The translations under genes were made by a program, and so were the position numbers. From the NCBI GenBank assembly GCA_009785425.1, contig WQWI01000009.1, forward strand, positions 1 to 64,000: 64,000 bases of DNA, given 5' to 3'. The DNA comes from Bacteroidales bacterium. Lineage in GTDB: Bacteria; Bacteroidota; Bacteroidia; Bacteroidales; P3. The notes beneath the pieces were generated by a model. That model searched no databases. It saw only the letters and a program-made list of their open reading frames with translations, and was not told the origin of the DNA. Shown here piece by piece: positions 9,002 through 64,000 of the stretch; position 1 is the stretch's first letter, and each line of letters begins with the position of its first letter.

Positions 9002-12000
9002 AACAATTTTTCTTTCAAAAATTTCCCCGTAATCGAAGTTTTGCACTTCACCAATTGTTCGGGCGTGCCCTCGAACACAATGTGTCCGCCATGAATTCCA
9101 CCTTCGGGACCTATGTCGATAACATGATCGGCACACTTGATTAAATCGAGATGATGTTCAATCACAATAATCGTGTGTCCCTTGTCTATCAAGGCATCAA
9201 ACGATTCTTTCAATTTGTGGATATCGTGAAAATGCAATCCTGTTGTGGGTTCGTCAAAAATAAAAAGTGTAGGTTTGTCGGTTACGCCTTTGGTCAGAAA
9301 ATAAGCCAATTTCACGCGTTGTGCTTCTCCGCCGGACAAGGAATTTGATGATTGTCCAAGTTTCAGATAACCTAATCCAACATCTTGTAGCGGCTTTAAC
9401 TTCGCTACGATGTTGTTTTCGGTTGTGGATTTAACTGTTTGGTGCGGGATGCGAGGTGCGTTTATGTCGTCATTGCGGGCTTGACCCGCAATCCCATAGC
9501 AAGGGGATTCCTGCTTTCGCAGGAATGACGGTTGAACCTCGTGCCTGAAAAATTCCAACGCCTCATCAACGGTCATATCCAAAATTTCAGAGATGTTTTT
9601 GTCGTGATATTTCACCTCTAAAACCTCCTCTTTGAAGCGTGTGCCGTGACATTCTTCGCAAACCAAATAAACATCTGCCATGAATTGCATTTCAACTTTG
9701 ATTTGCCCTTCGCCTTGACATGTTTCGCAACGTCCGCCCTCAACATTGAACGAGAAAAATCCGGGCTTATAATTACGACTTTTTGCCAACGGCTGATTAG
9801 CAAATAAACTTCGAATATCGTCAAACGCTTTCACGTATGTTGCCGGATTTGAACGGCTGGAGCGACCTATCGGATTTTGATCAACCATTTCTACATCTGC
9901 AATGCGATGATAATCGCCCAAAATTTTGTGATATTTTCCGTGTGTGTCGCCATATCCACCAAAGATTTTTTTCAACGCAGGATACAGTGTTTGCTTGACT
10001 AACGTAGTCTTTCCGGAGCCACTAACGCCTGTAACCAGCGTTAAAATTCCAAGTGGAAACTTAACGGTTAAATTCTGCAAATTGTGCTCGCATGCACCTT
10101 TTAGTTCGATGTAATCTGTCCATTTCCTGCGAAAGGTTGGAGTGTCGATACTCCGAATACCCTGCAAGTACTCACACGTGAGTGACGTCATCCCGAGCGA
10201 AGTCGAGGGATCTCCTTGCTTCTTGGGGATGTCTCGACTACGCTCGACATGACGGTTTTGCTTACAATCCGTGATTTTTCCTTGAAACACGACTTGCCCC
10301 CCGTGAACTCCTGCCAAAGGACCAATATCTATAATTTCATCGGCAGCCCGGATAATCTCCTCGTCGTGCTCAACCACAATTACAGAGTTGCCTAAATCAC
10401 GGAGTTGTTTCAAAACGTGAATCAATCGCTCGGTATCTCGGCTGTGCAAACCAATACTCGGTTCATCCAAAATATACATGGAACCAACGAGTGCAGAGCC
10501 TAATGATGTCGCAAGGTTGATGCGTTGTGCCTCGCCACCCGACAAAGAATTTGAAAGGCGGTTTAAGGTCAAATAATTCAGTCCGACATCCATCAAAAAC
10601 TGCAAGCGACTGTTGATTTCTTGTAGAATGCGCTTTGCAATCACAGCCTCATCTTTGGGCAGTTTAAGTTTGTTGAAAAATGTTTGCAATTCGTCAATCG
10701 GCATCAGCACTAACTCCTGAATATTTTTTCCACCGACTTTCACATAACCTGCGTCTTTTCTCAACCGTGTGCCTCTACAATCGGGACATAGCGTTTTTCC
10801 CCGATAACGTGCCAACATCACACGATATTGTATTTTATGTGTCTGCGTTTCAATCCATTTGAATAAATCATGAATGCCTTCGAAATATTTATTGCCATCC
10901 CAGAGTAACTTTTTTTGTTCCGTTGTGAGTTGGTTGTAAGGCTTGTGAATAGGGAATTTCAAACGTTCGGCATTAGCAATTAAATGACGTTTTGCTTCGC
11001 CCATTTTTTCGCCACGCCAAATTGCAATTGCATCTTCGTACACGGAAAGCGTTGGATTCGGCACGACTAAATCTTCGCTAATACCGATTACCGAGCCGTA
11101 GCCTTCGCATGTCGTGCAAGCACCGTAAGGATTATTGAAACTGAAAAAACTTTCGTTTGGTTTCTCAAAGGTCATTCCGTCAAGTTCGAAACGGTTGGAA
11201 AATTCCAACATATTTCCGTCAATGATTTGCACGAAGCATGTTCCGTTTCCCTCGTGATATGCGGTTTGTATTGAATCGAACACGCGGGAATACAGGTCAG
11301 AATCGTCCTGCTTGATGGTCAGGCGATCAACCAATAGCTTGTAATCCGTCATTCCGAGCGAAGTCGAGGAATCTCCCTGCTTCTTGGGGATGTCTCGACT
11401 TCGCTTCGCTTCGCTCGACATGACGGACAAATCGTCAATGCTAATAATTTCCTCAAACCCTTTTTTGCTAAATTTTCCCAATCGTGAAAATCCCATTTGC
11501 TGTAACACTTGTAATTGCTCAACTTCCGTGCGATTCTCCTTGATGAGAAGCGGTGCAAAAATCATGATTTTGGTGTCGTTTGGCAAAGCGGTAACTTCAT
11601 CAGCGACATTGCTTACACTGTCGCGCGTAACTTCCTTGCCGGAAATAGGCGAAAACGTGTGCCCTGCTCGTGCAAAAAGAAGTTTGATGTATTCGTAGAT
11701 TTCTGTGGATGTTCCAACCGTTGAACGGGGATTGCGATTTGCTGATTTTTGTTCAATGGCGATCGCCGGTGAGATGCCGGAAATATCATCCACTTCGGGT
11801 TTGCTCATTTTTCCCAAAAACTGACGTGCGTAAGCCGACAGCGATTCCACATAACGCCTTTGCCCTTCCGCATAAAGTGTGTCAAATGCTAATGATGACT
11901 TGCCAGACCCCGATAATCCCGTGATGACAACCAACCGATTTCGAGGGATTTCAACGGTAACATTTTTCAGATTATTGACACGTGCGCCTCGGATTTGTAT

Positions 12001-12034: not shown

Positions 12035-12389
12035 CGGAATTTAATTGAGAATTGAAAATTGAGAATGGAGATTTTTTTTTGCTATGTTCAAAATTTTTTC
12101 GTGCTTTTGTATGTTTTTTCAAAAGTTACCAACAAAACCGCCAATTTGCTAACAATTTTATACGAAAATCGGGATTTTTGCGTTATATATGGTAGGAACC
12201 TAAAACACGCGTACGGATTTCGGTACTATTCAAAAACAATAAAGCATACTACAACCACGAAATCAATGTCATCAAATAAAAAAACCTCTCTTGCTGCAGA
12301 AGTTCCAATGGTTCTTCAATGCCCACACAAAAAAGGTTGTTTTACTTTGCAAAGTTACAACATTTTTTTGAAAAAACCAAATTTTTTCG
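12035..12389. other. AT-rich gene-free stretch between uvrA and the M3 operon
   Basis: I see no convincing gene here. Near 12045-12066 is a GAGAATTGAGAATGG-like simple repeat that recurs at about 63033-63055 beside yidC. CAAAGTTA near 12350 could be a weak minus-strand promoter, but no gene follows it. Confidence 0.5.
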
Positions 12390-12425: not shown

Positions 12426-14528
12426 ATGAAAAAACTAATTATTATTGCTTTGGCAGCCCTTGCACTTATGACAAGTTGTGACCCCAATGCAAGAAATCCA
12501 TTCTTTGCAGAAACTTGGAACACACCTTTTGGTACTCCGCCGTTTGATCAAATCAGAACCGCACATTACATGCCTGCTTTCTTGGAAGGTATGAGGCGTC
12601 ACAATGCCGAAATTGAGGCTATTATCAACAATTCGGAAGCACCTACTTTCGAAAATACAATTGTTGCTTTTGAGGCATCGGGTTTATTCCTCGAAAGAGT
12701 GGAGCTGACATTTAGAAACTTCATTCGTACAGATCGCAATGCAGGACTTACGGAAGTTGAAAGGGAAATTCTACCAATGCTTTCATCACACTTCGACCGG
12801 ATTTCTATGAATGCGGAATTGTTCGAACGCATCAGGTATGTTTATGAAAACGAACGCGGCCAACTTTATGGAGAGGATGAGAGATTGCTCTACATCATGC
12901 ACAGAAATTTTGTTCGCGGAGGTGCAATGCTTGATGAAGCATCACAAGCAAGGTTGAAAGAAATCAACGAAGAATTGACAAATTTAACTTCGCAATTCAA
13001 CTCGAATGTGATGGCAGAGCAAAACGCATTTTATTTACACATTACAGACGAAGCACAATTATCAGGACTTCCTCCGGCAGTTGTTGCAGCAGCAGCGGCT
13101 TTGGCAGAAAGAGAAGGAAAAGAGGGTTGGTTGTGGCTATCACTCCAAAGGTCAGTATTTACACCTCTTTTAACGTTTTTAGACTGCCGTGATTTACGCT
13201 ACAAAGTATGGAGTGCGTATGTAAATAAAGGAACTCATGACAATGAGTTTAACAATGAGGGGGTCGCTACAAATATCGCTAACCTTCGATTGGAAAAAGC
13301 ACAATTGTTTGGGTACGAAACTGCCGGTGCTTTTATTTTGGGAACTACTACTGCGAGATATGTAGAAACCGTCCAACAATTTCTGACAGACCTTTGGATA
13401 CCAACACAGCGTATGTTTAACCGTGAAGCAAGAATGCTTCAAGACATGATTTATGCGAGAGGTGGCGACTTTGAGCTTCAGCCGTGGGATTGGCGTTATT
13501 ATGCTGAAATCGTCAGACAAGTAGATTTCGGTTTCGATGAAACTGCATTTCGCGAGTATCTAAAATTGGAGAATGTAATTAACGCCGCTTTCGACCTAAC
13601 TACACGGCTTTGGGGCGTAACGTGGGAAGAGCGTTTTGATATTCCAAAATTCAATCCTGAAAACAGAGTTTGGCTCATGAGAGATTACGATGGAACAGAA
13701 CTGGGAATTCTTTTTGCCGACTATCATCCTCGTCCGAGCAAGCAAGGTGGTGCATGGATGGGGTATTTCCGTCAGCAATCCGGTTGGCCACATAATAATG
13801 TGTTGCCGGTAGTTTTGAACATAAGTAATTATACTGCTCCGTCCGGTGATCAACCTGCATTGTTGTCGATTGACGAAGCTAATACGTTGTTTCACGAGAT
13901 TGGACATGCGTTACACATGTTGTTCAGCAGAACATACTATCGCAGTTTGTCAGGTACAAATGTGAAGCTTGACTTTGTTGAAATGCCGTCGTCTCTTATG
14001 GAAAACTGGGCATTCGAACCTGAATTCTTGAGAACATTTGCAAAGCATTATAGAACAGGCGAGGTGGTTTCAGATGAAATGATTGAACAAATGCAAAGAG
14101 CAGCCATATTCAATATGGGCTTTATCACAGGAGAATTTTTGGCCTCTGCGTGGGTGGATTTCTTTTGGTACACAGTAACCGAACCAATTACGAAAGGAGC
14201 TGTAGAGTTTGAATTAGCAGCAATGGCACATCCGTTGGTAAATTTAGCACCGCAATTGAAGCCAAGACACCGTTCGACTTACTTCTTGCATATTTTTAGT
14301 AGTATGTACCATATGGGTTATTACAGCTATTATTGGTGTGAGGTTCTTGATGCGGACATTTTCCAAGCCTTTGTTGAGTCAGGCGATTTATTTAACAGAG
14401 AAGTGGCGGCAGGTGTCCGAAGAATGTTTGAACAAGGTGGAACTGTTGATCCTGCTGATATTTTTAGAGAATTTAGAGGTAGAGACCCGAGACCTGAACC
14501 GTTCTTGAGACGACGCGGGTTGTTGTAA
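12426..14528 (+). CDS. M3 family metallopeptidase lipoprotein, Dcp-like (1 of 3)
   Basis: A 700-aa zinc peptidase of the peptidyl-dipeptidase Dcp/oligopeptidase family, which trims short peptides. The N-terminus has a lipoprotein signal with lipobox LMTSC (Cys18), so the mature protein is membrane-anchored and periplasmic or surface-facing. The HEIGHALH zinc motif is near residue 489, and the third ligand Glu lies about 30 residues later in FVEMPSS. It is the first of three tandem paralogues with spacers of 32 and 22 bp. Genes 1 and 3 share AYVNKGTHDNEFNNE, which gene 2 replaces. Peptide uptake for amino-acid fermentation is a likely role. The exact cleavage preference cannot be read from the sequence. 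Confidence 0.9.
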   Translation: MKKLIIIALAALALMTSCDPNARNPFFAETWNTPFGTPPFDQIRTAHYMPAFLEGMRRHNAEIEAIINNSEAPTFENTIVAFEASGLFLERVELTFRNFIRTDRNAGLTEVEREILPMLSSHFDRISMNAELFERIRYVYENERGQLYGEDERLLYIMHRNFVRGGAMLDEASQARLKEINEELTNLTSQFNSNVMAEQNAFYLHITDEAQLSGLPPAVVAAAAALAEREGKEGWLWLSLQRSVFTPLLTFLDCRDLRYKVWSAYVNKGTHDNEFNNEGVATNIANLRLEKAQLFGYETAGAFILGTTTARYVETVQQFLTDLWIPTQRMFNREARMLQDMIYARGGDFELQPWDWRYYAEIVRQVDFGFDETAFREYLKLENVINAAFDLTTRLWGVTWEERFDIPKFNPENRVWLMRDYDGTELGILFADYHPRPSKQGGAWMGYFRQQSGWPHNNVLPVVLNISNYTAPSGDQPALLSIDEANTLFHEIGHALHMLFSRTYYRSLSGTNVKLDFVEMPSSLMENWAFEPEFLRTFAKHYRTGEVVSDEMIEQMQRAAIFNMGFITGEFLASAWVDFFWYTVTEPITKGAVEFELAAMAHPLVNLAPQLKPRHRSTYFLHIFSSMYHMGYYSYYWCEVLDADIFQAFVESGDLFNREVAAGVRRMFEQGGTVDPADIFREFRGRDPRPEPFLRRRGLL

Positions 14529-14560
14529 CATCAAAAATCAAATAAATACCAATACAAACC

Positions 14561-16657
14561 ATGAAAAAGTTAATCATCATTGCTTTGGCAGCATTCGCAC
14601 TTATGACAAGTTGTAACCCTAATGCAAACAATCCGTTTTTTGCGGAAACTTGGGATACGCCTTTTGGTGTTCCGCCATTTAATCAAATTCGAGCACAGCA
14701 TTACATGCCTGCTTTTTTGGAAGGCATGAGACGCCACAACGCCGAAATCGAGGCTATCGTGAACAATCCGGAAGCACCGACTTTCCAAAATACAGTTGTT
14801 GCCCTTGAAGCCTCAGGACAATTCCTTCAAAGGGTAAGTTTGACATTTATGAACATTATTCTCTCCGAGCGTACCGAGCAACTCACGCAAATTGAAGTAG
14901 AAATTATGCCGATGCTTTCAGCACATTCTGATCAAGTTTCTATGAATCCGGAACTGTTTGAACGTATCAGAATTGTTCATGAGAATGAACGCTCGCAACT
15001 TCAAGGCGAAGATTTAATGTTGCTTGACATTATGTACAGAAACTTTGTTCGTGGAGGTGCACTGCTTGCTGAAGGACCTCAAGCAAGACTGAAAGAAATC
15101 AACGCAGAATTATCAGGTATAGTTACGCAATTCAACGCGAATGTGTTGGCAGATCAAAATGCGTTTTATTTACACATTACAGATGAAGCACAATTATCAG
15201 GACTTCCTGCGGCAGTTGTTGCAGCAGCAGCGGCTTTGGCAGAAAGAGAAGGAAAAGAAGGCTGGTTGTGGCAATCGCTCCAAAGATCAGTATTTACACC
15301 GCTTTTGACGTTTTTAGATTGCCGTGATTTGCGTTACAAAGTGTGGAGTGCTTATGTGAATGTTGGTAACAACGGCAACGATAACGACAACAATGAAATT
15401 ATTGTAAGAATTGCAAATCTGGAGTTAGAGAGAGCACAGTTGTTCGGTCACGAAACAGCTGGCTCATTCATTTTGGAAACAAGTATGGCAGGCGATGTGG
15501 AAACTGTGAGAAATTTTATTCAAAGTCTTTGGGAGCCTACAATGCGTGTATTTGCTCGTGAAACAATCGCACTTCAACAAATGGCAGATTCGAGAGGCGG
15601 TAATTTCCAAATTGAGCCTTGGGATTGGCGTTACTATGCAGAAATCGTTAAACAAATAAATTACGATTTCGACGAGACTGCATTCCGCGAGTATTTGAAA
15701 TTGGAAAACGTAATTCAAGCGGCCTTCGATCTAACCACAAAACTTTGGGGTGTAACTTGGGAAGAACGTAACGATATTCCAAAATTCAATCCTGAAAATA
15801 GAGTTTGGCTTATGAGAGATTACGATGGATCAGAATTGGGAGTTTTCTTTGCTGATTATCATCCTCGTGCGAGCAAACAGGGCGGTGCGTGGATGTGGTT
15901 TTTCCGTCCGCAATCCGGTTGGCCTGATAATAACGTTTTGCCGATTGTTACAAATGTAAGTAGTTATACGGCTCCTTCGGGCGACCGACCTGCGTTGTTG
16001 TCGATTGACGAAACTAACACGTTGTTCCACGAAATTGGACATGCGTTGCACATGTTGTTCAGCAGAACAAATTATCGCAGTTTAGCAGGAACTAACGTAA
16101 AAAGAGATTTTGTTGAAATGCCATCATCTGTTATGGAAAATTGGGCATTCCATCCGGAATTTTTGAGAACTTATGCCAGACATTACAGAACGGGCGAAGT
16201 TATTCCTGATGAGCTCATCGAACAAATGTTAAGATCGCGCAGTTTCAATCAAGGTTTTATTCAAGGTGAATTTTTAGCTTCTGCATGGGTAGATTATTTT
16301 TGGTACACCATTACGGAACCGATCACGGTTGGTGGTGTAGAATTTGAATTAGAAGCAATGAGAAGAGTAGGCTTGCCGAGAGAATTGAAACCAAGACACC
16401 GTTCGACTTACTTCTTACATATTTTCAGTCTCAACTATGCCATGGGCTATTACAGCTACCGCTGGGCGGAAGTTTTGGATGCGGATATTTTCGAAGCGTT
16501 TGTTGAATCCGGCGATATCTTTAATCCGATTTATGCACGCAAACTTCGTGAAGTTTTTGCAGCCGGTGGAACGGTTGAACCTGCCGAACTTTTCAGACAG
16601 TTCAGAGGTAGAGACCCTATACCGACACCATTTTTGAGAAGTCGCGGATTATTGTAA
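14561..16657 (+). CDS. M3 family metallopeptidase lipoprotein, Dcp-like (2 of 3)
   Basis: Second tandem copy, 698 aa, with the same lipobox (LMTSC) and start (MKKLIIIALAAFAL). The zinc motif HEIGHALH and the downstream FVEMPSS are intact. It is the most diverged of the three: the loop after SAYVN is Asn-rich (VGNNGNDNDNN), and the segment before the C-terminus lacks the AAMAHPL form of gene 1. Some blocks, such as TDEAQLSGLP and REGKEGWLW, are almost unchanged in all three copies even at the nucleotide level, which suggests recent duplication or gene conversion. Catalytic residues are complete, so it should be active. Confidence 0.9.
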   Translation: MKKLIIIALAAFALMTSCNPNANNPFFAETWDTPFGVPPFNQIRAQHYMPAFLEGMRRHNAEIEAIVNNPEAPTFQNTVVALEASGQFLQRVSLTFMNIILSERTEQLTQIEVEIMPMLSAHSDQVSMNPELFERIRIVHENERSQLQGEDLMLLDIMYRNFVRGGALLAEGPQARLKEINAELSGIVTQFNANVLADQNAFYLHITDEAQLSGLPAAVVAAAAALAEREGKEGWLWQSLQRSVFTPLLTFLDCRDLRYKVWSAYVNVGNNGNDNDNNEIIVRIANLELERAQLFGHETAGSFILETSMAGDVETVRNFIQSLWEPTMRVFARETIALQQMADSRGGNFQIEPWDWRYYAEIVKQINYDFDETAFREYLKLENVIQAAFDLTTKLWGVTWEERNDIPKFNPENRVWLMRDYDGSELGVFFADYHPRASKQGGAWMWFFRPQSGWPDNNVLPIVTNVSSYTAPSGDRPALLSIDETNTLFHEIGHALHMLFSRTNYRSLAGTNVKRDFVEMPSSVMENWAFHPEFLRTYARHYRTGEVIPDELIEQMLRSRSFNQGFIQGEFLASAWVDYFWYTITEPITVGGVEFELEAMRRVGLPRELKPRHRSTYFLHIFSLNYAMGYYSYRWAEVLDADIFEAFVESGDIFNPIYARKLREVFAAGGTVEPAELFRQFRGRDPIPTPFLRSRGLL

Positions 16658-16679
16658 AACAGTAAAAAAAACACAAATC

Positions 16680-18776
16680 ATGAAAAAATTAATCATTATC
16701 GCTTTAGCAGCCTTTGCACTTATGACAAGTTGCAATCCTAACGCAAACAACCCGTTTTTTGCGGAAACTTGGAATACCCCTTTTGGTACTCCTCCGTTTG
16801 ACCAAATCAGAACCGCACATTACATGCCTGCCTTCTTGGAAGGTATGAGACGTCACAACGCCGAAATCGAGGCTATTATTAACAATCCGGAAGCACCGAC
16901 TTTCCAAAACACAGTCGTCGCTTTCGAAGCATCAGGCATGTTCCTTGAAAGAGTGAATCTGGTATTTGTAAACGTCCTTCGCACCGAACGATACGAAGGA
17001 CTTACAGAAATTGAAAGGGAAATCATGCCGATGCTTACGGCACATTTTGACCAAGTTTCGATGAATCCGGAATTGTTTGAACGCATTAAATTCGTCTATG
17101 AAAATGAACGCGACCAACTAGAAGGAGAAAACGCAAGATTGCTTTACATCATGCACAGAAATTTTGTTCGTGGTGGTGCAAATCTTAGTGAAGCAGATCA
17201 GGCTCAACTGAAAGCAATCAATGACGAATTAACACGTTTGATTTCGCAATTCAACGCAAATGTGTTGGCAGAGCAAAATGCATTTTATTTGCACATTACA
17301 GACGAAGCACAATTATCAGGACTTCCGGCGACAGTTGTCGCAGCGGCAGCCGACTTGGCAGCAAGAGAAGGTAAAGAAGGCTGGTTGTGGAGATCACTTC
17401 AACGTTCAGTGTTTACACCTCTGTTAACGTTTTTAGACTGCCGTGACCTACGCTACAAAGTATGGAGTGCGTACGTAAATAAAGGAACTCATGATAACGA
17501 ATTTAACAACGAATGGGTCGCTACAGGTATCGCTAATCTTCGCTTGCAAAGAGCACAATTATTTGGTCACGAAACAGCAGGTTCTTTCATCGTGGAAACC
17601 TATATGGCGGGAACTACACAAACCGTGAGAGAATTTTTGGAGAGCATTTGGACTCCAACACAAGTTCAGTTTGCTCGCGAAGCAAGAGAGCTTCAAAGAA
17701 TGATCGATGCCAGGGGTGGAAATTTCGCCCTTGAACCATGGGATTGGCGCTATTATGCAGAGTTAGTCAGGCAAGAAAAATACAATTTCGATGAGACCGC
17801 TTTCCGCGAATACCTAAAATTGGAAAATGTGATTAATGCAGCATTTGATTTAACCACAAGACTTTGGGGCGTAACCTGGGAAGAGCGTTTCGATATTCCG
17901 AAATTCAATCCTGAAAACAGAATTTGGTTGATGAGAGATTACGATGGAACAGAGTTGGGAATTCTTTTTGCCGATTATCACCCTCGTGCGAGCAAGCGTG
18001 GTGGTGCCTGGATGTCGTCTTTCCGTCAGCAATCCGGATATCCGGGTGGTAGAGTGTTGCCGATAGTTTTGAATATAAGCAACTATACTGCTCCTTCCGG
18101 CGATCAGCCTGCGTTGTTGTCAATTGACGAAGTTAATACGTTATTTCACGAACTTGGACACGCACTACACATGCTGTTGAGTAAAACACAATTCCGCAGT
18201 TTGTCGGGAACCAATGTGAAGCTTGATTTTGTTGAAATGCCTTCAGAACTTATGGAAAATTGGGCATTTCATCCGGAATTTTTGAGAACGTACGCGAGAC
18301 ATTACAGAACAGGAGAGGTAATTTCAGATGAATTGATTGAAACAATGCTAAGAGCGAGAACATTTAACCAAGGATTTATCACAGGAGAATACATGGCTTC
18401 AGCATGGTTAGATTATTTTTGGTACACACAAACCGAAGAAATCACGGTGGGTGCTGTAGAATTTGAATTAGCAGCCATGAGGAAGGTGAATTTACCACGT
18501 GAATTAAAGCCAAGACATCGTTCGACTTATTTCTTACATATCTTCAGTGGAATGTACGCTATGGGTTATTATGTTTACCGTTGGGCGGAAGTTTTGGATG
18601 CGGATATATTCCAAGCGTTTGTTGAGTCCGGCGACATTTTCAATCAAGAATTGGCGGCAGGTGTTAGAAGAATTTTTGCTGCAGGCGGAACGGTTGATCC
18701 TTCCGAACTTTTCAGAGAGTTCAGAGGTAGAGATCCAAGGTCGGAACATTTTTTGAGACGGATTGGGTTGTTGTAA
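16680..18776 (+). CDS. M3 family metallopeptidase lipoprotein, Dcp-like (3 of 3)
   Basis: Third tandem copy, 698 aa, with lipobox LMTSC at Cys18. The zinc motif reads HELGHALH rather than HEIGHALH, which still fits HExxH, and the third ligand is in FVEMPSE. Its N-terminal 70 residues and the region around SAYVNKGTHDNEF are closer to gene 1, while its C-terminal third (ELKPRHRST, YRWAEVLDADIF) follows gene 2. This mosaic pattern fits gene conversion within the array. Transcription probably ends at the 44-bp palindrome directly downstream. Confidence 0.9.
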   Translation: MKKLIIIALAAFALMTSCNPNANNPFFAETWNTPFGTPPFDQIRTAHYMPAFLEGMRRHNAEIEAIINNPEAPTFQNTVVAFEASGMFLERVNLVFVNVLRTERYEGLTEIEREIMPMLTAHFDQVSMNPELFERIKFVYENERDQLEGENARLLYIMHRNFVRGGANLSEADQAQLKAINDELTRLISQFNANVLAEQNAFYLHITDEAQLSGLPATVVAAAADLAAREGKEGWLWRSLQRSVFTPLLTFLDCRDLRYKVWSAYVNKGTHDNEFNNEWVATGIANLRLQRAQLFGHETAGSFIVETYMAGTTQTVREFLESIWTPTQVQFAREARELQRMIDARGGNFALEPWDWRYYAELVRQEKYNFDETAFREYLKLENVINAAFDLTTRLWGVTWEERFDIPKFNPENRIWLMRDYDGTELGILFADYHPRASKRGGAWMSSFRQQSGYPGGRVLPIVLNISNYTAPSGDQPALLSIDEVNTLFHELGHALHMLLSKTQFRSLSGTNVKLDFVEMPSELMENWAFHPEFLRTYARHYRTGEVISDELIETMLRARTFNQGFITGEYMASAWLDYFWYTQTEEITVGAVEFELAAMRKVNLPRELKPRHRSTYFLHIFSGMYAMGYYVYRWAEVLDADIFQAFVESGDIFNQELAAGVRRIFAAGGTVDPSELFREFRGRDPRSEHFLRRIGLL

Positions 18777-43425: not shown

Positions 43426-43516
43426 GTGTCATTCCCGCGAAGGCGGGAATCCCCCAGAACAAGGGGATTGCGGGTCAAGCCCGCAATGACGACCACCTGC
43501 CACGCGGGAATGACGA
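43426..43516. repeat. CGTCATT-type palindromic repeats between susD and the thioredoxin gene
   Basis: One full unit (GTCATTCCCGCGAAGGCGGG to CCCGCAATGACG) is followed by a partial second end (GCGGGAATGACG). It resembles the uvrA unit at 9468. It probably separates susD from the next gene transcriptionally. Confidence 0.75.
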
Positions 43517-54336: not shown

Positions 54337-54348
54337 ATTTTTTTGGTG

Positions 54349-54399
54349 CAAAGATACGATTTTTTTTTTTTGAAATGTCATTTATTTTTTGTATCTTTG
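54349..54399. promoter_or_regulatory. Divergent promoters of the GNAT gene and PFOR
   Basis: TATCTTTG on the minus strand (54349-54356) for the GNAT gene and TATCTTTG on the plus strand (54392-54399) for the PFOR gene, 35 nt apart in an A/T-rich stretch. Confidence 0.7.
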
Positions 54400-54417
54400 C
54401 AAGCAATTTGAATTTTT

Positions 54418-58903: not shown

Positions 58904-60997
58904 TTACGAAATTTTAGACCAAACGGTTTCTCCAAACATTTTTCGAAGCGTGTGATTTAGTTTTTGATGTCGCGGTTGGCTCAAATTTGGGTCTTCATCC
59001 AACACCAACCCTGCGGCGACACGTGCTGCACGGATAATACGCTCGTCTTTGGTTAAATCGGCTAATTTGAAATTTAAGGTTCCGCTTTGCTGTGTGCCTT
59101 GAATGTCGCCGGGTCCGCGAAGTTGTAGGTCAACTTCGGCGATTTTGAAACCATCGTTGGTTTTCACCATCGTATCTATTCGCTGTCTGGCATCACTGCT
59201 GAGCTTGTGGCTCGACATTAAGATGCAATAACTTTGTTCGGCTCCGCGTCCTACACGTCCACGCAATTGATGAAGTTGAGAAAGTCCGAAACGTTCGGCG
59301 TTTTCAATAACCATCACGGTGGCATTCGGAACATCTACACCCACCTCAATGACTGTTGTCGAAACCATAATTTGTGTTTTGTTTTCAACAAATAATTTCA
59401 TACCCAAATCCTTTTCGGTTTGAGGCATTTTTCCGTGCAAAATACTAACTTGAAATTCCGGACGTGGAAATTCTGCACACATTGTAAAATAGCCTTCTTC
59501 CAAGTCTTTCAAATCCAATTTTTCCGACTCTTTAATGAGCGGATAAACCACATAAACTTGTCTGCCTTTTCGGAGTTCTTGCTTGATAAATTCGTACAAT
59601 TTCAAACGCGAATTATCGTAGCGATGCAACGTTTGCACAGGTCTTCGATTAGGCGGAAGTTCATCGATGACGGATGTGTCCAAATCGCCGTACAGCGTCA
59701 TCGCTAACGTGCGTGGAATGGGTGTTGCCGTCATTACTAAAATATGTGGCGGAAACTGACTTTTTGCCCAAAGTTTCGAGCGTTGTGCAACACCGAAACG
59801 ATGCTGTTCGTCAATGACGCAAAGTCCGAGTTTTTGAAATTGTACCGTGTCTTCAATCAAAGCGTGAGTACCTATGAGAATTTTAATTGTTCCGTTTTGC
59901 AAACTTTCGTGTAATTCGCGTCGTTCTTTAGTTTTTGTAGAACCTGTCAGCAATCCGATACCAATGTCTAACCCTGTCAAAAATTTCTGAATACTTTTGA
60001 AATGCTGTTGTGCCAAAATTTCGGTCGGAGCCATAAGGCAAGACTGGAATCCGTTGTCGGCAGCGATAAGCATTGTCATTAAGGCAACCAGCGTTTTTCC
60101 ACTTCCGACATCGCCTTGCAGCAAACGATTCATTTGAAATCCGCTGCCTAAATCTTTGCGAATTTCTTTCACAACGCGCTTTTGTGCATCTGTTAGCGTA
60201 AACGGGAGATTTTCCTTGTAAAAATGATTGAAATTTTCGCCGACTTTGGAAAATACATAACTTTTTTCTAACTTATGCTGTGTTTTCTGCTTCAAAACAC
60301 GCATTTGCAGCAAAAATAACTCTTCAAATTTGATTCGGTTTTGAGCCCTAACCAATTCGTCTTGATTTTTTGGATAATGTATCAAACGTAGAGCGGAATC
60401 TCTTGAAATCAATTGATACTTCTGCAAAACAGACTCCGGCAAAATTTCGGGAACAGGCGAATACATTCCTTCCAAAAGCGTTTGCATCAATTTACTGACC
60501 GCTTTTGAAGTAAGTCCTTTGTTTTTCATGGTTTCCGTTGTATTGTACATCGGAAACAAGCTTTCTTTTTGTAGTTTGGCTTCGCTTGCCAAATCAATTT
60601 CGGGATGCGTAAAATTGTACGACTTATTGAACAGTGTGGGTTTGCCGAAAATCACGTAATCTTCGCCGATTTTCAAATTTTCGTTGATCCATTTCACACC
60701 TTTAAACCAAACCAAGTCTATTTCGCCAGTTTCATCGGCAAATCGAACCACCAAGCGTGATTTGAATTTTGCACCAACCACTTCTTTGCTCAAAATTTTG
60801 CCTTGAATTAAAACATATGTGCTTTCGCTTTTGAGCTCATTTATTTTAACGTAGTTACTTTTGTCCACATAGCGAAACGGCAGGTAGTTCAGCAAATCCT
60901 CGAACGAAAACACATTGATCTCCTTGCGAAGCAATTCGCCCCGCTTCGGACCTACGCCCTTTAGAAATTCAATCGGTGTAACTAAATAGTCGTTCAT
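58904..60997 (-). CDS. recG: ATP-dependent DNA helicase RecG
   Basis: Branch-migration helicase that rescues stalled forks and processes recombination intermediates. ATG 60997 (MNDYLVTPIEFLKGVGPKRG) is preferred over TTG 61003. The N-terminal wedge/OB domain (GVGPKRGELL) is followed by the helicase core: LLQGDVGSGKTLVALM (Walker A), MAPTEILAQQHF, VIDEQHRFGV (the DEQH box), VMTATPIPRTLAMTLYGDLD, and QLRGRVGRG. The length (about 697) is normal. Its promoter is 16 nt upstream. Confidence 0.96.
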   Translation of the reverse strand: MNDYLVTPIEFLKGVGPKRGELLRKEINVFSFEDLLNYLPFRYVDKSNYVKINELKSESTYVLIQGKILSKEVVGAKFKSRLVVRFADETGEIDLVWFKGVKWINENLKIGEDYVIFGKPTLFNKSYNFTHPEIDLASEAKLQKESLFPMYNTTETMKNKGLTSKAVSKLMQTLLEGMYSPVPEILPESVLQKYQLISRDSALRLIHYPKNQDELVRAQNRIKFEELFLLQMRVLKQKTQHKLEKSYVFSKVGENFNHFYKENLPFTLTDAQKRVVKEIRKDLGSGFQMNRLLQGDVGSGKTLVALMTMLIAADNGFQSCLMAPTEILAQQHFKSIQKFLTGLDIGIGLLTGSTKTKERRELHESLQNGTIKILIGTHALIEDTVQFQKLGLCVIDEQHRFGVAQRSKLWAKSQFPPHILVMTATPIPRTLAMTLYGDLDTSVIDELPPNRRPVQTLHRYDNSRLKLYEFIKQELRKGRQVYVVYPLIKESEKLDLKDLEEGYFTMCAEFPRPEFQVSILHGKMPQTEKDLGMKLFVENKTQIMVSTTVIEVGVDVPNATVMVIENAERFGLSQLHQLRGRVGRGAEQSYCILMSSHKLSSDARQRIDTMVKTNDGFKIAEVDLQLRGPGDIQGTQQSGTLNFKLADLTKDERIIRAARVAAGLVLDEDPNLSQPRHQKLNHTLRKMFGETVWSKIS

Positions 60998-61013
60998 TGC
61001 CAAAAAACTTTTG

Positions 61014-61039: not shown

Positions 61040-61162
61040 CTATCTTTTCCGCTTTTTTTGCAATTCTTGTTGTCTTTTCGCTGCTTCTTCGAGGCGTTGT
61101 TGCCACTTGGATTTGGTAACCGGTTTTTTGCGTGCTTCGGCAACCATGTGGCGAACTTTTTC
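61040..61162 (-). pseudogene. Detached C-terminal tail of YidC behind an amber codon
   Basis: Directly after the YidC stop (TAG at 61163-61165), the same frame stays open for 40 codons until TAG 61040-61042. It encodes a basic, helical segment (EKVRHMVAEARKK, then PVTKSKWQQRLEEAAKR and a Lys/Arg-rich end). Bacteroidota YidC proteins normally end in just such a tail, so this is the lost C-terminus. An internal ATG at about 61147 could in principle start a 35-residue peptide. Confidence 0.8.
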
Positions 61163-62995
61163 CTAATTAATAAACCTGCCCGTTACCCAAGTAATCAAAA
61201 AGGTCATACACGTCGAAACAAAGTAATAGTAGTTCAATGCCGACGAAAAACTATTCAAAAACATCAATAACATGATCGGCATAAAATACATCATGGTTTT
61301 CATTCCGGGCATCATCGTTGATGCATTTTGACGCATGGTCATTCGCGTATAAAACACATTCGAAACCGCCATCATAATTGCGAACAAACTGATGTGAGCC
61401 CCATAAAACGGGATATTGAAAGGTAAATTGATAATAGAATCGTAGGTTGATAAATCGTCTGCCCAAAGAAACGGTTGTTGACGCAATTCTATACTGTTCG
61501 GGAAAAATCGGAACATCGCAATCAAAATCGGGAATTGCAACAACATCGGGATACAGCCTGCCAGCTGGTTGATTCCGGCTTTCCGATAGAGTGCCATAAC
61601 CGCTTTTTGTTTTTCCATCGCCTGTTCGGGTTTTGGAAATTTCTTGTTGAGTTCCTCGACTTCGGGCCTGACTACTTTCATTTTTGCAGCCGAAATCCAC
61701 GATTTCAGCGTAAGCGGAGCCAAAACAAGTTTGAGTAGAACCGTTAAAATAAGGATAATTATTCCGTAGTTGAGGTTAAATCCTTGCAAAAAATTGAATA
61801 CCGGAATCACGGCAAAACGGTTTACCCACTGCATTAGGAAGAATCCCCATCCAAGTGGAACCAAGCGTTCCAAATCCAGATTATAAGATGATAAAATTGA
61901 AAAACTGTTAGGTCCCAAATACAATTTCATGTTGATGCTGTGATTTGGCTCTGACCTGTAAGGCAGGCCTATCAAAGCGTCCAACGTTCTGACATAATTA
62001 GCTCTATCCAAATTCGGATCGGTAGAATTCGTCAGATTGGCATTCACGATCGAGTTGTTATCTTTCATAATTAAAGCCGACGTGAAAAAATGATGTCTGA
62101 ACGCTACCCAATTTACCGGTGTGTTGATTCTCTCTTCGCCATCGCCACGGCTTACACGATCAACTCGGGCGTTGTTAGGCTTGAAGAAAATACCAGTGTT
62201 TGTATTTTCAAAACTTCTAGCTTCATTTCCGGCTGAGGCTCTTTCGTTTCTTGGCAAAACAGCATTCCAGTGTAAATCAATCGTATTCGCCCCTGTTGCC
62301 GGCTCAACTATGCCGGCCATCCCTACAAAATTTATCTGGAAGTCAATCATATATTCATTTCCTCTAAATCTGTAAAGAAATTCGACATATCGTGATCTGT
62401 CCAGATCATAACCATCATTCAAGAACAATCTCATTGCAACCTCTGCGGTTTGGTCGCCTGTAATTACTGCACCATCTTGAAAATTGGATGTGATTTCAAA
62501 AAAGTACTCATACGTCCTGATTATGCGTTGATTTACAGTGCGGGCATTTACAGCAAATTCGATGAAAAAATTATGCCATTCGTTATCGAATAATGTGACG
62601 TGTTTATTCTCTGCGATATGTGGCGACACGAGAAAATCATTCAGACTCACCCGTGACATTGTTCCGCCGAGATTGCTGAAATCCACGGTAAATTTGTCAG
62701 TTATGAGTGTTTTGGTCTGTTTTTCGCCAACTAAACTGTTTGAGAAAAAATTTTGTTCGTCTCTTACGATTTCCGGTCTTTCATCTGTCGGCTGTACAGA
62801 TGGGGCATGCCCCGTCTCTACTGCATATACCAATGCCAACGAATCTTGTACGCGCTGCAATTCAGCCGCAATACGTTGTTCTTGTTGCTCGCGAATCATT
62901 TGTTCGCGTTCTTCCGCACTTGGTGCATTCCACCAAGCGAACACAGCAATCACTACAAACATGAGTATCAGACCCGTAACTGTATTTCTATCCAT
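61163..62995 (-). CDS. yidC: Membrane protein insertase YidC, truncated by an amber codon
   Basis: Inserts and folds inner-membrane proteins with or without Sec. The 610-aa protein has an N-terminal membrane anchor (VTGLILMFVVIAVFAWW), a periplasmic beta domain, and the conserved C-terminal core with GWGFFLMQW, YGIIILILTVLLKLVLAPLT, the cytoplasmic hairpin (EVEELNKKF), GCIPMLLQFPILIAMF and the last helices. It stops at RFIN with TAG; the expected basic tail follows in the same frame. In other bacteria this tail contacts the ribosome, so loss may weaken co-translational insertion. Residues about 58-69 (AVETGHAPSVQ) come from an in-frame palindrome. The promoter is 20 nt upstream. Confidence 0.93.
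   Translation of the reverse strand: MDRNTVTGLILMFVVIAVFAWWNAPSAEEREQMIREQQEQRIAAELQRVQDSLALVYAVETGHAPSVQPTDERPEIVRDEQNFFSNSLVGEKQTKTLITDKFTVDFSNLGGTMSRVSLNDFLVSPHIAENKHVTLFDNEWHNFFIEFAVNARTVNQRIIRTYEYFFEITSNFQDGAVITGDQTAEVAMRLFLNDGYDLDRSRYVEFLYRFRGNEYMIDFQINFVGMAGIVEPATGANTIDLHWNAVLPRNERASAGNEARSFENTNTGIFFKPNNARVDRVSRGDGEERINTPVNWVAFRHHFFTSALIMKDNNSIVNANLTNSTDPNLDRANYVRTLDALIGLPYRSEPNHSINMKLYLGPNSFSILSSYNLDLERLVPLGWGFFLMQWVNRFAVIPVFNFLQGFNLNYGIIILILTVLLKLVLAPLTLKSWISAAKMKVVRPEVEELNKKFPKPEQAMEKQKAVMALYRKAGINQLAGCIPMLLQFPILIAMFRFFPNSIELRQQPFLWADDLSTYDSIINLPFNIPFYGAHISLFAIMMAVSNVFYTRMTMRQNASTMMPGMKTMMYFMPIMLLMFLNSFSSALNYYYFVSTCMTFLITWVTGRFIN
62798..62817. repeat. GTAGAGACG-type palindrome inside yidC
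   Basis: AGATGGGGCATGCCCCGTCT, continuing to CTAC on one side, is palindromic except for one base pair. Its end GTAGAGACGGGG (minus strand) matches the family found in murD. It is read in frame as ETGHAPS in the low-complexity region after the first membrane segment. Confidence 0.75.
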
Positions 62996-63917: not shown

Positions 63918-63949
63918 TTTGTATTTTTTTTGCTTTGTTAAATTTCCTG

Positions 63950-63957
63950 CAAAGTTA
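63950..63957 (-). promoter_or_regulatory. -7 element of the BRO-N gene
   Basis: TAACTTTG on the minus strand, 32 nt from the ATG at 63917. Confidence 0.65.
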
Positions 63958-64000
63958 CGCAAAAGAATCCGAAAAAAAAACTTAAAAAGTGTTAAAAATC

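Follow-up and report, generated by a model that had tools for sequence, protein, structure and literature searches.

An in-frame TAG ahead of the conserved basic tail of YidC in a Bacteroidales draft genome, most likely a recent nonsense allele

In a 64,000-nucleotide window of a Bacteroidales draft genome (assembly GCA_009785425.1, positions 1 to 64,000 of contig WQWI01000009.1), we found that the gene for the membrane insertase YidC is interrupted by a TAG codon, behind which the frame continues through a conserved basic C-terminal tail. We regard a recent nonsense allele of yidC, carried by the sampled lineage, as the best explanation (GAG to TAG by a G to T change on the coding strand), with a probability of about 0.5; a wrong base in the draft assembly comes next. 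Neither a real allele nor an error points to a new decoding mechanism, and the finding is ordinary in kind.

The frame in front of the stop encodes the YidC periplasmic domain (Pfam PF14849, 64 bits against a cut-off of 24) and the 60KD_IMP core (PF02096, 155 bits, cut-off 35), and it matches the Bacteroidota type of YidC in NCBIfam (NF002356, 541 bits, cut-off 460). Read on the minus strand from the start at 62995, it reaches the TAG after 610 codons, and the codons around the two stops are GGC AGG TTT ATT AAT TAG (61165-61163) GAA AAA GTT CGC CAC ATG and, at the end of the tail, CGG AAA AGA TAG (61042-61040). The 40 codons between them encode EKVRHMVAEARKKPVTKSKWQQRLEEAAKRQQELQKKRKR, with 15 Lys or Arg and five Asp or Glu residues. 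The first-pass annotation had described a TAG followed by 40 further codons of a Lys/Arg-rich tail, and its coordinates proved correct. The basic cytosolic tail is usual for YidC of the Bacteroidota type but does not define the wider family; in this yidC it is not part of the uninterrupted frame, since the TAG precedes it. No second copy of yidC was found in the assembly (1.63 Mb, 49 contigs, 71% complete). The coordinates of the locus are given in Table 1.

Table 1. Features of the yidC locus, in positions of the window.
Feature	Coordinates	Strand	Basis or remark
yidC, membrane insertase	61166..62995	-	610 codons up to the premature stop; Pfam and NCBIfam profiles
Premature TAG in place of the relatives' GAG (Glu)	61163..61165	-	Codon alignment with L001/L068, L002/L069 and L070
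Conserved 40-codon basic C-terminal tail of YidC, 3' of the premature stop	61043..61162	-	Sister identity, dN/dS, 70 distinct relatives
Native (original) yidC stop, TAG	61040..61042	-	TAA in congeners
Internal ATG in the tail, native Met codon	61145..61147	-	Codon alignment position +6: ATG in all four sequences
recG, next gene downstream, intact	58904..61003	-	ATG at 60997 is the start matching the sister

The genes yidC and recG are adjacent in the window, while 4.4 kb lie between them in the closest relative, where a LysE-type transporter, a GH3-like protein and small genes are found (names assigned by eye). Other DNA follows yidC in the congener L002/L069, and the gene order after yidC is not conserved.

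The closest relative, referred to here as the sister, is 85-87% identical and was found in two collections (L001 and L068, identical over the matched region). It has an uninterrupted YidC of 642 amino acids, which ends in EEKVHRMVAEARKKPVTKSKWQQRLEEAAKKQQELQRKRKR and carries GAG at the site of the stop. Because 36 of the 40 tail residues of the window match this sister tail, with no insertion or deletion, the frame behind the TAG is not a chance open frame. A similar basic tail is carried by two further congeners, one with GAG (L002/L069) and one with GAA (L070) at the stop site. With GAG, GAG and GAA in the sister and congeners, the ancestral codon was most likely GAG for Glu, as judged from the alignment, and one G to T change would give TAG; the relatives' sense codon is thus one base away from the stop. 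It had been proposed that a single change of CAG, AAG or GAG produced the TAG: the single-base change and GAG hold, while CAG and AAG do not agree with the congeners. The sister and one congener are metagenome bins (isolate names Emb289P1bin57 and Th196P3bin126). These names follow the pattern of a survey of higher-termite guts (PMC7024585), and the window may come from a similar source. The window's species is represented in the comparison by one genome.

We extended the comparison to 396 Bacteroidia genomes, with the full-length sister YidC (642 amino acids) as query and roughly 150 matches listed. Among the matches listed, all except the window extend to query position 632 of 642 or further and are free of internal stops, and the window alone is marked with one TAG before the tail. 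The tail is present in all 70 distinct relatives with a readable 3' end (36-63 amino acids, net charge +6 to +13), in agreement with the earlier claim that Bacteroidota YidC proteins carry such a basic tail. The first-pass annotation had named relatives that share the stop and whose tail has decayed as its refutation; the outcome was the opposite, as none of the relatives checked has the stop and all of them keep the tail.

The substitutions in the tail give an indication of the age of the stop. Between the window and the sister, dS is 0.47 and dN 0.049 in the tail, and 0.79 and 0.084, respectively, in the body of yidC. The dN/dS ratio of about 0.10 in the tail equals that of the body, and the tail substitutions fit selection until very recently. 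With the congeners as outgroups, three non-synonymous tail changes were assigned to the branch of the window (His to Arg, Arg to His and Lys to Arg), all of which leave a basic residue. About 38 such changes would be expected along the whole branch under neutrality (Poisson probability of three or fewer, about 4e-13). Since the tail shows far fewer changes than neutral, the stop must be young, absent from the cells, or bypassed. Assuming that the tail became neutral once the stop arose, and with the simplification that the branch length is half of the pairwise dS, the stop occupies at most about 20% of the window's branch (95% upper limit). An old stop with a relaxed tail is therefore rejected by the substitution counts, and the undecayed downstream frame bears out the suggestion of the first-pass annotation that the change is recent.

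We infer that the cells themselves carry the TAG. A single-base substitution of GAG to TAG would then have created the yidC nonsense allele, and translation would end after residue 610, with the loss of a cytosolic basic tail of 41 residues but without damage to the periplasmic domain or the membrane insertase core. The stop lies beyond the last transmembrane segment of the core, which should therefore be complete. By analogy with other YidC proteins, whose tail helps to dock ribosomes, the shortened insertase should still function but bind ribosomes more weakly. Longer basic YidC tails from other bacteria bind ribosomes, or ribosomal proteins are pulled down with them (PMC8595059; PMC8546722). 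In E. coli, deletion of the YidC C-terminus is reported to lower the ribosome affinity by about 75%, with binding and channel activation retained (earlier work cited in PMC10741985); a truncated YidC can thus plausibly be carried. Hence the function of a tail-less YidC is expected to be reduced but not abolished, and the truncated state would be tolerable, though probably mildly harmful. The universality of the tail suggests selection against its loss, so that a truncation that has become fixed is improbable from the outset.

One differing base in an unfinished draft of 49 contigs, ahead of a tail that is free of any decay and that no checked relative lacks, is also what would be seen if the TAG were a base-call or consensus error, or a minor variant in the consensus, and the cells carried an intact yidC of 651 codons. 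This explanation is a serious possibility and the main rival of a real allele. Against it, the contig shows no obvious excess of errors: of about 25 window genes for which a sister orthologue was available, only yidC has an internal stop, and none is split by a frameshift. The yidC lesion is, by this comparison, isolated, which one wrong base would also produce, and general regional decay or a poor contig was rejected, as the other genes match the sister without stops.

The first-pass annotation had further offered that the stop is read through, or that the tail is made separately from the internal ATG. Readthrough of a real stop, by a near-cognate or suppressor tRNA or by a programmed signal, would yield a short and a tailed YidC in a ratio that may be regulated, and the frame and residues kept past the stop would agree with it; however, the recency of the stop fully explains this preservation. 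Among about 20 tRNA genes that ARAGORN recovered from the 71% complete assembly, none has a CUA anticodon, an absence that the gaps in the assembly make provisional. No PylS match exceeded the cut-off, and the sole PylS-like match is weak and lies inside a longer protein; weak matches of this kind also occur in most control genomes. A suppressor tRNA or pyrrolysine system was thus sought and none found in this incomplete assembly. The RNA 3' of the TAG folds no better than shuffled sequences (z -0.23). Moreover, TAG is an ordinary terminator here: it ends 12 of the 38 genes of the window, and the yidC frame itself natively closes with TAG. In a readthrough gene the stop would be expected to persist from species to species, flanked by sequence under coding constraint, whereas a stop at this yidC position occurs in no relative (congeners and Bacteroidia matches listed), and an inherited programmed signal is therefore not indicated. 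Taken together, nothing speaks positively for readthrough, and we consider it unlikely. Still more doubtful is the specific proposal that a genuine amber codon is read through in part, giving mainly tail-less and a minority of tailed YidC, with leaky termination tuning ribosome docking. A separate tail peptide of 35 amino acids, made by translational coupling from the ATG 15 bases after the TAG, is highly improbable, given that the same ATG is an ordinary tail Met codon in all three congeners with an intact YidC. Moreover, we know of no function for the tail when detached from the membrane core.

Reassignment of TAG to an amino acid in this genome is the least credible of the readings and has largely been refuted already. 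It draws on release factor 1 (prfA), which was not found in the 71% complete assembly; the sister contig, however, carries prfA just downstream of secA, and secA is missing from this assembly too. secA is essential and cannot be lost by the cell, so that the secA-prfA segment is simply unassembled, and absences in this assembly should not be taken as losses. RF1 is present in all four congeners. A code in which TAG is reassigned would have lost RF1 and no longer use TAG as a terminator, whereas TAG still serves as one here: of the TAG-ended genes, that for pyruvate-flavodoxin oxidoreductase stops within one residue of the end of its sister counterpart, and no tRNA to decode TAG was among those found. 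TAG recoding was rejected on the strength of the TAG-ended genes, with the RF1 gap put down to the missing segment.

Some further observations were made in the window and the rest of the genome. Dispersed repeats are present as segments of 50-80 bp at 54340-54400, 63930-64000, 10186-10260, 11346-11426, 12120-12200 and 43428-43494; these match many sites in the sister genome and are abundant and common to the genus. Positions 12426-18776 hold three tandem paralogous genes of about 700 amino acids each, which are in tandem in the sister too. The prfB frame of this genome for release factor 2 (L118, G000:C12; 1228-2316 there) contains an in-frame insert with TVIPAKAGIPRNEGNEHLQGDSRLRGNDDP, roughly at residues 58-92, that is absent from the sister. 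The insert looks like a translated dispersed repeat, and its motifs VIPAKAGIP and RLRGND are found again in the window, near 43431 on both strands and near 9526 on the minus strand. In L137, a congener, this prfB linker is occupied by another insert.

Overall, if the base is real, the recent nonsense allele would provide a natural experiment: a lineage of Bacteroidales would be living without a YidC tail that is kept in all relatives checked, which may be useful for studies of tail function. If it is an error, the case calls for caution with single stops in draft assemblies.

The protein belongs to the YidC/60KD_IMP (Oxa1/YidC/Alb3) family and resembles the Bacteroidota type (NF002356) in the match of its whole periplasmic domain and core and in the usual basic tail, which is encoded 3' of the stop; in contrast to that type, its open frame ends 41 residues early at the TAG. 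The cytosolic C-tail is also found in YidC of Rhodopirellula, Oceanicaulis and Streptococcus, where it takes part in ribosome binding (PMC8595059). The predicted product is comparable to the E. coli YidC-delta-C variant in the loss of the cytosolic C-terminal tail, which in E. coli weakens but does not abolish ribosome binding (as cited in PMC10741985). However, the tail of E. coli YidC is shorter than the one described here, and the loss in our case would be due to a natural or apparent nonsense codon with a predicted effect on function. Ordinary recent nonsense alleles, such as 3'-truncated genes and incipient pseudogenes, share with this yidC the single-base stop, the undecayed downstream frame and the intact close relatives. 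Unlike in those alleles, the stop lies close to the 3' end of a gene that is normally essential, and the core protein would be complete.
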